Translations under genes and position numbers: made by a program | The notes under the pieces: generated by a model | Databases searched by the model: none | The model's input: the letters and a program-made list of their open reading frames with translations, nothing else | What the model was told of the DNA's origin: nothing | Source of the DNA: an uncultured Acidobacteriia bacterium | GTDB taxonomy: Bacteria; Acidobacteriota; Terriglobia; Bryobacterales; Bryobacteraceae | Length of the DNA stretch: 33,538 nt | Reading direction: 5' to 3' | NCBI GenBank assembly: GCA_903892565.1 | Contig: CAITIX010000315.1 | Location: 1-33,538 of the forward strand | Part shown: piece by piece, positions 6,713 through 33,403 of the stretch | Layout: the number at the start of each line of letters is the position of its first letter | Position numbering within the stretch: position 1 is the first letter of the stretch

Positions 6713-6760
6713 ACGTCTTCGCAGGAAGAACTTCTTGCTTTTTCCCCAATCCCCACGTGT

Positions 6761-6793
6761 GTCATCCCGAGCGAAGTCGAGGGATCTGCTGTT
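6761..6793 (-). repeat. Dispersed repeat family 1, short copy A
   Basis: The minus-strand reading of this 33-base stretch is AACAGCAGATCCCTCGAC followed by TTCGCTCGGGATGAC. The same core occurs at 22401, 22516, 22714 (inverted), 23177, 26151 and 26256. The ATCCC/GGGAT ends can pair around a GCTTCGC-like centre. This copy lacks the longer GC-rich tail found in the island copies. Confidence 0.75.
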
Positions 6794-6812
6794 CTGCCGC
6801 AGCCCGCGCTTA

Positions 6813-6868
6813 ACCCTTCTGGATCCACCCTTCTGGATCCACCCTTCGGCATCAACCCTTCTGGATGA
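6813..6868. repeat. Four tandem 14-bp units running into the end of the mmgE/prpD gene
   Basis: ACCCTTCTGGATCC occurs at 6813-6826 and 6827-6840, followed by degenerate units ACCCTTCGGCATCA (6841-6854) and ACCCTTCTGGATGA (6855-6868). The last units overlap the final codons and stop (6852-6854) of the minus-strand MmgE/PrpD reading frame. Because 14 is not a multiple of three, changes in unit number would alter the C-terminal end of that protein. Confidence 0.7.
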
Positions 6869-21896: not shown

Positions 21897-22400
21897 CCGA
21901 TGAATTACTCAGTCTCTGGCGGGGATTCTGGCTCGTAGAAAAGAAACCTGAATTGCCTCCGATTCAATCCTGAGCTCTGATGACCGAGGGGAGAGGCGAT
22001 CGCGCTGCGTCGCTTTCTGGCCCGCGCTTTGCGGACTGGCTGGTGTCACCCAGACTCCGAACGGCGTTTCGAAATCGATTTCGAGGTCTCTCGTCGCCGA
22101 CGTCCGTATAGTCGCCGCACGCAAGGCTTCAGGCCTCCGAGAGATCAGCTTCATTAAAAGTGCAACGTTTCCCCGGCCGGGGAAGAAACTTGTTACGCCT
22201 GCAGAGTAGCGGAGGGCGTGTGGGTTGCGCGGGGGTGGATTCCGGAAAGCGTTGAGAAATCGGCGGAAACATTGGTCAGGAGGCAAGTGATGGGCAAATA
22301 CCCGCATGGGTGAGCGGGCTAAAAGGGATTGAACAGAAGCTCGGCGCTTTTGAGAAACGCTAGGGATAATCTGCTGTTCAGATTTTGGTGAGGCAAGAAG

Positions 22401-22486
22401 AAACAGCAGATCCCTCGTCGCTTCGCTCGCTCGGGATGACCGGGCGATGGGGAGGAAAGTAGCGTGGTGGGCGTCCTCGAGTGGTG
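22401..22486 (+). repeat. Dispersed repeat family 1, copy B
   Basis: A long copy: AAACAGCAGATCCCTCGTCG, a TTCGCTCGCTCGGGATGAC segment, then the tail GGGCGATGGGGAGGAAAG and GCGTGGTGGGCGTCCTCGAG. It shares both head and tail with copies C, D and E. Confidence 0.85.
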
Positions 22487-22515: not shown

Positions 22516-22613
22516 AACGGCAGATCCCTCGTCGCGTCGTTTACCCACTTCGGTTCGCTCGGATGACCGGGCGGCGGGGGAAGAAGTGGCGTGGTGGGCG
22601 TCCTCGGGTGGTG
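22516..22613 (+). repeat. Dispersed repeat family 1, copy C
   Basis: Same unit as copy B, with about 17 extra bases (TTTACCCACTTCGGT) in the head hairpin region. The tail GCGTGGTGGGCGTCCTCGGG is intact. Copies B and C are 29 bases apart and in the same orientation. Confidence 0.82.
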
Positions 22614-22713: not shown

Positions 22714-22793
22714 GCGAGGACGTCCTCCACGCTATTCTGTTCCTCAAAGCCGGGTCATCCCGAGTAGCGAAGCGACCGAGGGATCTGCTGTTT
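22714..22793 (-). repeat. Dispersed repeat family 1, inverted copy D (beside the GIY-YIG gene)
   Basis: The reverse complement of the unit: GACGTCCTCCACGCTA at the tail, then GTCATCCCGAGTAGCGAAGC and GAGGGATCTGCTGTTT at the head. Its head end lies 15 bases past the GIY-YIG stop codon. It is in the opposite orientation to copy E on the other side of that gene. Confidence 0.85.
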
Positions 22794-22808
22794 GCTCGCG
22801 TGCAACGG

Positions 22809-23108
22809 CTATCGGCGACTATCCCAATCAACGGAAAGATCTTCCCACGTTGAGTTGGTCGCTTCGACGAGAGCTACTTTCTTCTCGCGTCGCCAGGCTT
22901 TGATTTCTTTCTCACGGGCGATCGCGGCCTGAGGAGTAACAAAGTGTTCGAAGTAAACCAGGCGGTGAACCTGGTAGCGCCCGGTGAATCCCTTGTTCTC
23001 GCCTGCGCGATGCTGCCGGATGCGGCGCTCCAGATGGTTGGTGACACCGCAATAGAGAACACGCGAGCGGCTTGCGAGGATATAGACGAAGAACGAACTT
23101 TGCCGCAC
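22809..23108 (-). CDS. Small GIY-YIG nuclease (URI-like)
   Basis: A 99-residue single-domain GIY-YIG protein. The signature appears as FVYILASRSRVLYCGVTNHLERRIRQHR, with Tyr-Ile-Leu in the place of GIY and Tyr-Cys-Gly in the place of YIG, the catalytic Arg in LERRIRQH, and the metal-binding Glu later in AIAREKEIKAWRREKK. Small members of this type occur in many genomes with no known substrate. The start is set at a GTG (23106-23108) because upstream in-frame codons to 23273 read through repeat copy E and give non-family residues. It is bracketed by inverted repeat copies D and E. Confidence 0.85.
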   Translation of the reverse strand: MRQSSFFVYILASRSRVLYCGVTNHLERRIRQHRAGENKGFTGRYQVHRLVYFEHFVTPQAAIAREKEIKAWRREKKVALVEATNSTWEDLSVDWDSRR

Positions 23109-23176
23109 GACCGCAGTGTAACTCTCGTTGGGCGTTGGGTGGGGATTCGCGAGCGGCGGATTTTGTTGGGGCTCGA

Positions 23177-23260
23177 AGAAACAGCAGATCCCTCGTCGCT
23201 GCGCTCGCTCGGGATGACTGGGCGATGGGGAGGAGAGTAGCGGGGTGGGCGTCCTCGACG
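23177..23260 (+). repeat. Dispersed repeat family 1, copy E (beside the GIY-YIG gene)
   Basis: Head AAACAGCAGATCCCTCGTCG and TCGGGATGAC, then tail GGCGATGGGGAGGAGAG and GGGGTGGGCGTCCTCGACG. The head faces the GIY-YIG start, 69 bases away. With copy D it makes an inverted pair around the gene. Confidence 0.85.
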
Positions 23261-26110: not shown

Positions 26111-26150
26111 TAAAACGCGGTGATTCGGCAATGTTTTATGAACGGCAGAT

Positions 26151-26225
26151 CCCTCGTCGCGGCGCTCGCTCGGATGACGCGGTTGGTGGGACGGAGAAAT
26201 AGCGTTGTGGGCGTCCTGCAAGTGG
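26151..26225 (+). repeat. Dispersed repeat family 1, copy F
   Basis: Head AACGGCAGATCCCTCGTCGC and CTCGGATGAC with tail GTTGTGGGCGTCCTGCAAG. It is more diverged than copies B to E, and is the third long copy outside the GIY-YIG bracket. Confidence 0.78.
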
Positions 26226-26255: not shown

Positions 26256-26289
26256 AACAGCAGATCTCTCGACTTCGCTCGAGATGACA
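26256..26289 (+). repeat. Dispersed repeat family 1, short copy G
   Basis: AACAGCAGATCTCTCGAC and TTCGCTCGAGATGACAG: only the head is present, and the hairpin is made nearly perfect by compensating changes (ATCTC with GAGAT). Confidence 0.72.
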
Positions 26290-27621: not shown

Positions 27622-27714
27622 CGTCCCCTCCTTTACAGTCGGGGTTCGGTGCTGGGCTTGCGAACGAAGTCGGTAGATAGCACCGGCACGCGACCGTTAG
27701 GGCGCGGGTCGACA
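27622..27714 (+). repeat. Palindromic repeat family 2, copy 1
   Basis: Left arm TCCCCTCCTTTACAGTCGGG then GTTCGGTGCT (27622-27653); right arm AGCACCGGCACGCGACCGTTAGGGCGCGGG (27679-27714). The reverse complement of the right arm is the CTAACGGTCGCG type. Both arms end in GGTGCT/AGCACC facing the loop. The second copy at 33320 carries the same two arms with the order reversed. Confidence 0.78.
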
Positions 27715-33278: not shown

Positions 33279-33319
33279 GGTGCGCCGGCGGCGTGCCCCA
33301 AGAGCGCTAAGGCTATTCT

Positions 33320-33403
33320 TGTCCGCTCCCTGACGGTCGCGGTTCGGTGCTGAATACGGGCTCGCAAGACTAGCACCGAACCCCGACTGTAAAGGAGGGG
33401 ACA
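33320..33403 (-). repeat. Palindromic repeat family 2, copy 2 (opposite orientation)
   Basis: Left arm TGTCCGCTCCCTGACGGTCG then CGGTTCGGTGCT (33320-33351); right arm AGCACCGAACCCCGACTGTA then AAGGAGGGGACA (33372-33403). The arms pair over about 32 bases with roughly six mismatches and enclose a 20-base loop. It is the same element as at 27622, inverted. Confidence 0.82.

Follow-up and report, generated by a model that had tools for sequence, protein, structure and literature searches.

A small GIY-YIG nuclease gene and the two outward-tagged palindromes that frame it probably constitute one module, in which a UPF0213-like GIY-YIG nuclease serves CGTC REPs as their dedicated enzyme. The module was recognized in a stretch of 33,538 nucleotides from an uncultured Acidobacteriia bacterium, here called the window. 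The association of nuclease and repeats occurs in many bacterial groups, the repeats are predominantly outward in polarity, and the type of REP follows the lineage of the nuclease. In addition, the outer stem of the repeats exhibits complementary changes, and the module as a whole is present at some sites and missing from their counterparts. The nuclease family is therefore put forward as a strong candidate for the missing partner of the CGTC REP superfamily. REPs rank among the commonest repeats in bacterial genomes, and those of the GTAG type have a known enzyme partner, the RAYT. The first-pass annotation of the window had proposed a nuclease-repeat module akin to RAYTs and their REPs, and this proposal is now supported by the flanks of 89 of 122 homologues and by a difference in repeat number between genomes.

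The nuclease gene and its repeats in the window

The nuclease gene (22809-23108, minus strand) ends at 22809 and encodes 99 aa from a likely GTG start at 23108, with the frame open upstream as far as 23273. The protein is a single-domain GIY-YIG nuclease. Its sole Pfam family is PF01541 (GIY-YIG, E 8.6e-15), with little sequence beyond the domain, and the same Pfam search revealed no HUH/Y1 tyrosine transposase domain; no NCBIfam model matched. Residues Y9, Y19, G21, R29, H33 and E66, which we take to be the catalytic residues of a GIY-YIG nuclease, were conserved in 98-99% of 123 aligned homologues and invariant in an alignment of 30. The AlphaFold model of the protein (mean pLDDT 89.3) gave its best fold match with PDB 1zg2 (UPF0213 protein BH0048, E 1.8e-5) and its second with Slx1, a branched-DNA nuclease (E about 0.006). 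Solved structures nearest by sequence were likewise UPF0213-like (1zg2 and 1ywl). The Slx1-like fold of the model makes a hairpin or cruciform substrate plausible. A defence origin of the protein was rejected, as no PADLOC family matched at E 0.001, and so was a phage origin, with no PHROGs family at E 0.001 and 15 matching phage records that were more distant (at most 38% identity).

The gene is framed by two inverted GTCAT-tagged hairpins, at 22754-22784 (plus strand) and 23188-23218 (minus strand), inside the REPs termed copies D and E. Copy D (22754-22787, plus strand) lies downstream with its GTCAT tag at 22754, and copy E (23185-23218, minus strand) lies upstream with its tag at 23218, so that both tags point away from the gene and both CAGATCCC heads face it. 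Read from the tag, the two copies are of the form GTCATCCCGAG...CGAGGGATCTGCTGTT, with the CAGCAGATCCC end directed at the gene. One CAGCAGATCCC head ends 18 bases from the gene end and the other begins 73 bases from the likely GTG start. The first-pass annotation had described inverted copies with their heads toward the gene at 15 and 69 bases, close to our recount, and had placed related copies at 6761, 22401, 22516, 26151 and 26256, all of which correspond to REPs. These are a long-subtype REP like D and E just outside the module (22407-22440, minus strand), detected by repeat comparison and pattern search, and three recovered by pattern search, namely a variant with a longer loop (22521-22567, minus), a dispersed copy of the short subtype (6761-6788, plus) and another dispersed copy (26146-26178, minus). 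The last is a dispersed, short-subtype copy with a variant stem at about 26261-26288 (minus), seen as an inverted repeat with 6745-6799. A tandem repeat of 14 nt (ACCCTTCTGGATCC) occupies 6813-6866, adjoining the REP at 6761, and a second dispersed repeat, around TTTACAGTCGGGGTTCGGTGCTG, occurs at 27623-27663, 33318-33352 and 33362-33402, with 95% complementarity across 41 nt for the pair that starts at 27623 and 33362.

The repeat unit of about 80-85 bp that had originally been proposed turned out to be local. Extended units that include an outer arm surround copy D (22714-22795, minus, found as inverted repeats) and copy E (23178-23258, plus, a direct repeat 92% identical to 22381-22480), and this arm of about 40 bases outside the hairpins is common to the copies near the nuclease gene. 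The single 14-mer of the outer arm that was tested has exactly 4 occurrences genome-wide, of which 3 lie inside the window, and this rules out the longer unit as a dispersed element; the genome-wide unit is the hairpin of about 28-34 nt. The base before GTCAT gives GGTC and AGTC in copies D and E and TGTC in the copy at 6761. Stems of the window REPs carry inner mismatches, and as single-stranded DNA the window hairpins folded no better than shuffles in a simple model of single hairpins.

The 4.63 Mb genome that contains the window holds 49 exact matches to the pattern CAGATCCCTCG N{4,30} GGATGAC, against 0 for the reversed control. The total of such repeats is about 50, so that a given 1-kb stretch holds a repeat with a probability of about 0.01. 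Close REP pairs among the matches listed in this genome were of both kinds of orientation. A second nuclease copy, 61% identical, resides on contig C299, where a repeat with an outward tag ends 10 bases before the aligned start, and only a decayed repeat copy was seen by eye on the downstream side. Both GIY-YIG genes found in the genome thus adjoin repeats, of different types: long (34 nt) at the window nuclease and short (28 nt) at C299. Two other genomes of the same genus contained no nuclease match. Counts with a looser pattern were 17 and 16 in these genomes versus 82 in that of the window, and the matches listed in them resembled background by eye. They provide no clean empty site because they have only the groL side of the window in common with it.

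Repeats at the flanks of nuclease homologues

We assembled 123 homologous loci: 70 from phylum genomes, 40 from the genome_contigs collection, and 13 of 40 plasmid-collection records (some of which are chromosomes). The best matches with a named source were mostly Acidobacteria. The phylum search detected a nuclease match in 108 of 396 genomes, and the 70 phylum loci comprise the matches of at least 55.9 bits, the C299 copy included; four matches of 50-56 bits were left out (the fragment G241:828093; G286, which lies close to a contig end; G012:C140; and G036:C6). Exclusion of L092, which has a short flank, left 122 loci in the counts, and five additional loci (L223 and L229-L232) were inspected by eye outside the counts. 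To count as a tagged hairpin, a sequence had to contain GTCAT with three further bases, then a loop of 4-50 and a complement that ends in AT. The joint criterion was the presence of outward hairpins on both flanks or a sequence-blind inverted-repeat score of 18 or more. As a sister-group control, we used 20 of the weaker GIY-YIG matches (37-49 bits), which are a sample of all such matches.

The joint criterion was passed by 89 of 122 homologues, as compared with 20 of 623 neighbouring control ORFs and none of the 20 sister-group members. These figures led us to reject chance as the cause of the repeat pairing, and they answer a check that the first-pass annotation had suggested for the flanks of relatives; the first of the outcomes it had named as adverse, no enrichment near GIY-YIG genes, did not occur. 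Small control ORFs (<700 bp) at the same loci passed in 9 of 271 cases. The strict hairpin alone was found at 57/122 homologues versus 13/623 control ORFs. Outside the phylum search, 41 of 52 loci passed, including 11 of the 13 plasmid-collection loci, those of R. tumorigenes (L180) and Photobacterium (L187) being the two that failed. Overall, 33 of the 122 homologues failed, some of them with REPs in direct orientation.

Polarity was examined in the first 109 loci, 50 of which had an outward hairpin on both sides and 8 of which had both inward. Outward hairpins on both sides were seen at 8 of 576 control ORFs of the same loci, and three scrambled tags yielded none on both sides in 109 loci. 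The nearest tagged repeat faced outward at 66 of 78 upstream flanks and at 53 of 74 downstream flanks. In the sister group, 2 of 20 loci had a tagged hairpin on one flank and none had it on both. Members of the sister group fall on one side of a branch with support of 99/95, in a tree derived from few columns, so that the repeat association belongs to one part of the family.

By record title, passing loci belong to Acidobacteria, Verrucomicrobia, Gemmatimonadetes, Anaerolineales and Clostridia, and also to Bacteroidota, Alpha- and Gammaproteobacteria, Neisseria and the cyanobacterium Planktothrix. As many genome_contigs records are metagenome bins, some of these assignments could be mistaken. 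The same picture was obtained in named replicons of Azospirillum lipoferum, Spirosoma, Rhizobium CIAT894, Shinella and Neisseria gonorrhoeae.

Relationship to CGTC REPs and to RAYT genes

Di Nocera et al. 2013 (PMC3733652) sorted REPs into GTAG and CGTC superfamilies. As described in the accessible portion of their survey, CGTC REPs have an unpaired CGTC, TGTC or CCTC tag, a stem of 8-9 bp that opens with A-T pairs, and mostly CCA-like tails; they are mostly paired with their tags outside (HH dimers) and include dRS3 of Neisseria and RPE-4 and RPE-6 of Rickettsia. By their sequence, the module repeats fit this superfamily and not the GTAG REPs of RAYTs. Among 182 outward hairpins that follow the GTCAT definition, T precedes GTCAT in 109 and C in 63, giving TGTC or CGTC in 172. 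Tag variants include CCTCAT in Sinorhizobium and CGTCAC in Sphingobium, and stems are of the ATCCC/GGGAT type (outer 5 bp tested). Neisseria provides CGTCATTCCCGCG, Azospirillum CGTCATCCCCGCGAAGGCGGGGATCCAG and Sinorhizobium CCTCATCCCTGTG as examples of module REPs. Two features agree less closely with the superfamily: copies D and E of the window carry GGTC and AGTC, and tails of CTG or CTC outnumber CCA, the commonest tail only among the plasmid-collection loci. Four related Sphingobium replicons contain nine close REP pairs among the pattern matches, spaced 52-59 bp from start to start and some perhaps orthologous, and all nine have their tags outside. Such pairs have the form of the module without its gene.

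RAYT-type genes (PF01797) matched in 41 of the 47 genomes of the class, and the genome of the window has 8 matches. No tagged hairpin was found near any of these 8 loci, nor within 600 bp of the 27 RAYT loci of the class that were tested (29 were fetched, and L210 and L217 were dropped for length), while 48 of the 70 nuclease loci of the phylum search had at least one. With none of 35 RAYT loci having a tagged hairpin nearby, RAYT was rejected as the partner of these repeats in the genome of the window and in its class. The survey's accessible text reports the same lack of a tie between RAYTs and CGTC REPs in other species, states that CGTC REPs "apparently lack a dedicated transposase," and surmises that their enzyme has vanished or is generic (PMC3733652).

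A separate arrangement was noted in Sphingomonas parapaucimobilis (L224:1690-2260, sufB|sufC), where a DUF559 gene (PF04480, E 2.4e-32) has inverted copies of another palindrome, CCCCTCCCCTTCAGGGGAGGGG, on its flanks. Here a different enzyme and a different repeat may form a second nuclease-REP pairing.

Co-variation of repeats and nucleases

In genomes with several nuclease copies, the two repeats of a locus resemble each other far more than they resemble those that flank the other copies (median match score 26, n=42, versus 11, n=88; p 2e-7), and nuclease copies that are alike have one repeat type in common (L037 and L140 in G359). Protein identity correlated with REP similarity in the phylum set (r 0.471), and with removal of pairs having homologous flanks r was 0.336 (744 pairs, p 0.0002, above all 5000 permutations). 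For all 78 loci, r was 0.290, and 0.214 without syntenic pairs (2955 pairs, p 0.0002); these tests correct only partly for relatedness, and many of the loci come from metagenome bins. Complements of their own stem lay near 162 of 289 outward tags; with stems swapped between loci (500 swaps), the count averaged 35 and never exceeded 53. The two halves of the stem change together.

Sinorhizobium meliloti Ak57 provides an example. Its second nuclease is 81% identical to that of Rhizobium CIAT894, so that the REP type of the CIAT894 lineage would be expected at its flanks rather than that of the first Ak57 copy, whose REP is CCTCATCCCTGTGCTCGTCACAGGGAT. This is what was found: the second nuclease has the CGTCATCC..GGGCTTGACCC type, as in the CIAT894 lineage. 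On either flank it has CGTCATCCTCGGGCTTGACCCGAGGATCCA, which is identical to the Shinella type; the tag of the downstream copy is altered. At the Ak57 locus L229, in the 260 bases before position 2501, a further, very similar nuclease gene ends and its downstream repeat follows, an arrangement that looks like a tandem duplication of the module. In Sinorhizobium medicae (L232:2501-2590), a nuclease gene cut short to about 30 codons and preceded by one REP is apparently a decaying module.

Repeat number in nuclease-bearing genomes

The repeat counts of genomes with and without the gene, another comparison that had been suggested beforehand, were higher in the former. Among 47 genomes of the class, the median number of pattern matches was 54 in the 31 with a nuclease and 20 in the 16 without (p 0.0002), with G121 counted as nuclease-bearing on a weak match (E 2.9e-7). 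REP count correlated with the number of nuclease copies (rho 0.59) and not with the number of RAYT matches (rho -0.02). The background level of pattern matches is probably about 15-25. Note that four genomes have many matches and no detected nuclease (G094, 103; G163, 101; G337, 75; G352, 43), that three bear a nuclease with matches at background levels of 16-21 (G049, G139 and G388), and that five more lie just above this level, at 27-30. Within g4, the only genus with enough genomes, counts were 113 in 15 genomes with nuclease and 59 in 6 without, a borderline difference (p 0.05).

Occupied and empty sites

The Azospirillum lipoferum module lies between sufB and sufC. The same junction in A. 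ramasamyi, A. oryzae, sp. B510 and A. brasilense contains only a spacer and no nuclease gene. Shinella PSBB067 has a family nuclease and REPs at this gene junction as well, in a region where the record is unannotated, and its first repeat begins 6 bases past the presumed sufB stop; the S. meliloti site, about 89% identical to that of Shinella along the sides that match, lacks both the gene and the repeats. Inspection by eye revealed no REP of the module kind at the empty sites of A. ramasamyi, A. oryzae and S. meliloti. At these sites, gain or loss of the repeats thus seems to have accompanied that of the gene.

In Sphingobium TomMM7A the module separates fnrL from a response regulator. The corresponding site of TomTYG64 (about 91% identity) carries CGTCACCCCGGGTCAAGCCCGGGGTGACG, which equals the outer halves of both repeats joined together. 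TomTYG74 has a mutated fused palindrome at this site and TomTYG72 a different palindrome. The fused site is the only one of 10 pattern sites in the TomTYG64 replicon that ends in a second tag, and one pattern site in TomTYG74 ends in the near-tag GTGATG. Loss by deletion between two palindromes is the simplest reading of the fused palindrome of TomTYG64. However, a target prior to insertion would look like a fused palindrome too, and the empty sites fit insertion and loss alike. No target-site duplication was resolved at the compared sites. The nearest two-sided record without the gene for Spirosoma, from Runella, was only 73% identical and so gave no usable empty site, and the matches listed for Rhizobium CIAT894 were one-sided only, leaving no empty site there.

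Other palindromes were seen at such locations. That of TomTYG72 at the nuclease site (L227:805-925) is CCCTCTCTCCTTCAGGGGAGAGGG, and a GGGGGAGGG-type palindrome lies between sufB and sufC in Azospirillum B510 (L221:1540-1720). It may be that palindromes of several families are drawn to one and the same intergenic location.

Proposed mechanism and alternative explanations

We propose that the nuclease would recognize its own type of REP, probably as an extruded hairpin or cruciform, and would cut at or near it. Host repair could then copy, insert or delete the framed DNA, and the gene and its repeats would spread together as a unit. Solitary REPs and outward-tagged REP pairs would represent non-autonomous derivatives. 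DNA hydrolysis by GIY-YIG enzymes proceeds without a covalent intermediate, and the route must therefore differ from that of RAYTs despite the similar layout. We are evenly divided on a broader version of this proposal, in which the modules make up a class of mobile elements distributed over many phyla, with a GIY-YIG nuclease of ~95 residues as the only gene and CGTC REPs as ends. The nuclease would move the REPs and itself through hairpin cutting and host repair, with no need of a transposase, an integrase or a covalent intermediate, and this would explain how CGTC REPs, Neisseria dRS3 among them, became dispersed.

The most serious competitor, although a rather unlikely one, is that the REPs spread by other means and serve as landing sites for a free-standing homing gene, whose product cuts one REP type and which is copied into the break. 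Homing endonucleases do occur among GIY-YIG enzymes, the tracking of nuclease lineage by repeat type would be expected of such a gene, and the fused palindrome at the unoccupied Sphingobium site could be its uncut target. Nevertheless, the empty sites of S. meliloti, A. ramasamyi and A. oryzae have, by eye, no such REP to land in, and homing leaves unexplained why REP number tracks nuclease number.

Insertion sequences are drawn to REPs, according to the accessible text of PMC1525189, and the gene could accordingly be a passenger at palindromes that mark hot or safe intergenic spots for insertion or recombination, residing there by chance or through selection for transcription ends. We find this improbable, given that small control ORFs (9/271) and the sister group (0/20) seldom or never share the arrangement, that repeats are alike within a locus and unlike those of other copies, and that catalytic residues are kept in 98-99% of homologues. 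Even less credible is the idea that RAYT transposases move these REPs while the nuclease only processes hairpins, for example in protecting replication. PF01797 genes are present in the genome of the window (8 matches) and in 41 of 47 genomes of the class, and the resemblance of the nuclease fold to Slx1 would suit processing of branched DNA. However, 0/35 RAYT loci had a tagged hairpin nearby, RAYT number was unrelated to REP number, the part of Di Nocera et al. available (PMC3733652) reports the same for other species, and a housekeeping nuclease has no need of a substrate that frames its gene.

Comparison with known systems

A search of the open-access literature, preprints excluded, found no link between GIY-YIG proteins and REPs in titles and the beginnings of abstracts, in part among the best 20-25 matches listed. 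The one paper containing both "GIY-YIG" and "extragenic palindrom" mentions the terms apart and, in its accessible text, draws no link. In the text available of a 2025 paper on a REP tool, CGTC occurs only in the Di Nocera reference, with transposase, RAYT and nuclease unmentioned; that of a 2018 paper on HUH enzymes has CGTC once, in the references, and GIY is absent. The CGTC class, which the accessible survey text of 2013 leaves without an enzyme partner, is now fitted by a specific nuclease family. If the proposal is true, part of the large family of small GIY-YIG proteins acquires a biological role. The conservation of catalytic residues and the tracking of lineage by repeat type make the question testable with short oligonucleotides and a 100-residue protein.

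UPF0213-like small GIY-YIG proteins (1zg2, 1ywl) share the single GIY-YIG domain with the module nuclease, but the sister group that was tested had no repeat pair at its flanks (0/20). Free-standing GIY-YIG homing endonucleases are likewise encoded by genes that may spread through their own cutting; the module differs in being framed by palindromes, and an unsystematic look turned up no intron, intein or fixed host gene. The module repeats are similar to the CGTC REPs of Di Nocera et al. 2013, as far as the available text describes them, in the CGTC/TGTC/CCTC tag, the A-T pairs that come first in the stem, the CCA tail of many proteobacterial loci, and, in Sphingobium, pairs with their tags outside, although the pairs listed in the genome of the window are of both kinds. 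They differ from that description in having a nuclease gene between them, where the survey associates no enzyme, in occurring also in groups absent from its phylum list, and in ending more often in CTG or CTC.

The closest parallel is the REPtron (RAYT / TnpA-REP, with GTAG REPs). Both systems place the gene of a DNA-processing enzyme amid inverted palindromes that are dispersed in the genome, and in both the pairing is repeat-specific. However, the enzyme of the module is a GIY-YIG nuclease and that of the REPtron a HUH tyrosine transposase, and the repeats are tagged CGTC/GTCAT in the former and GTAG in the latter. Since enzyme class and repeat superfamily both differ from the RAYT/GTAG pair, we count the nuclease-REP pairing as new in kind, while a stricter reader may regard it as another version of the REPtron idea.
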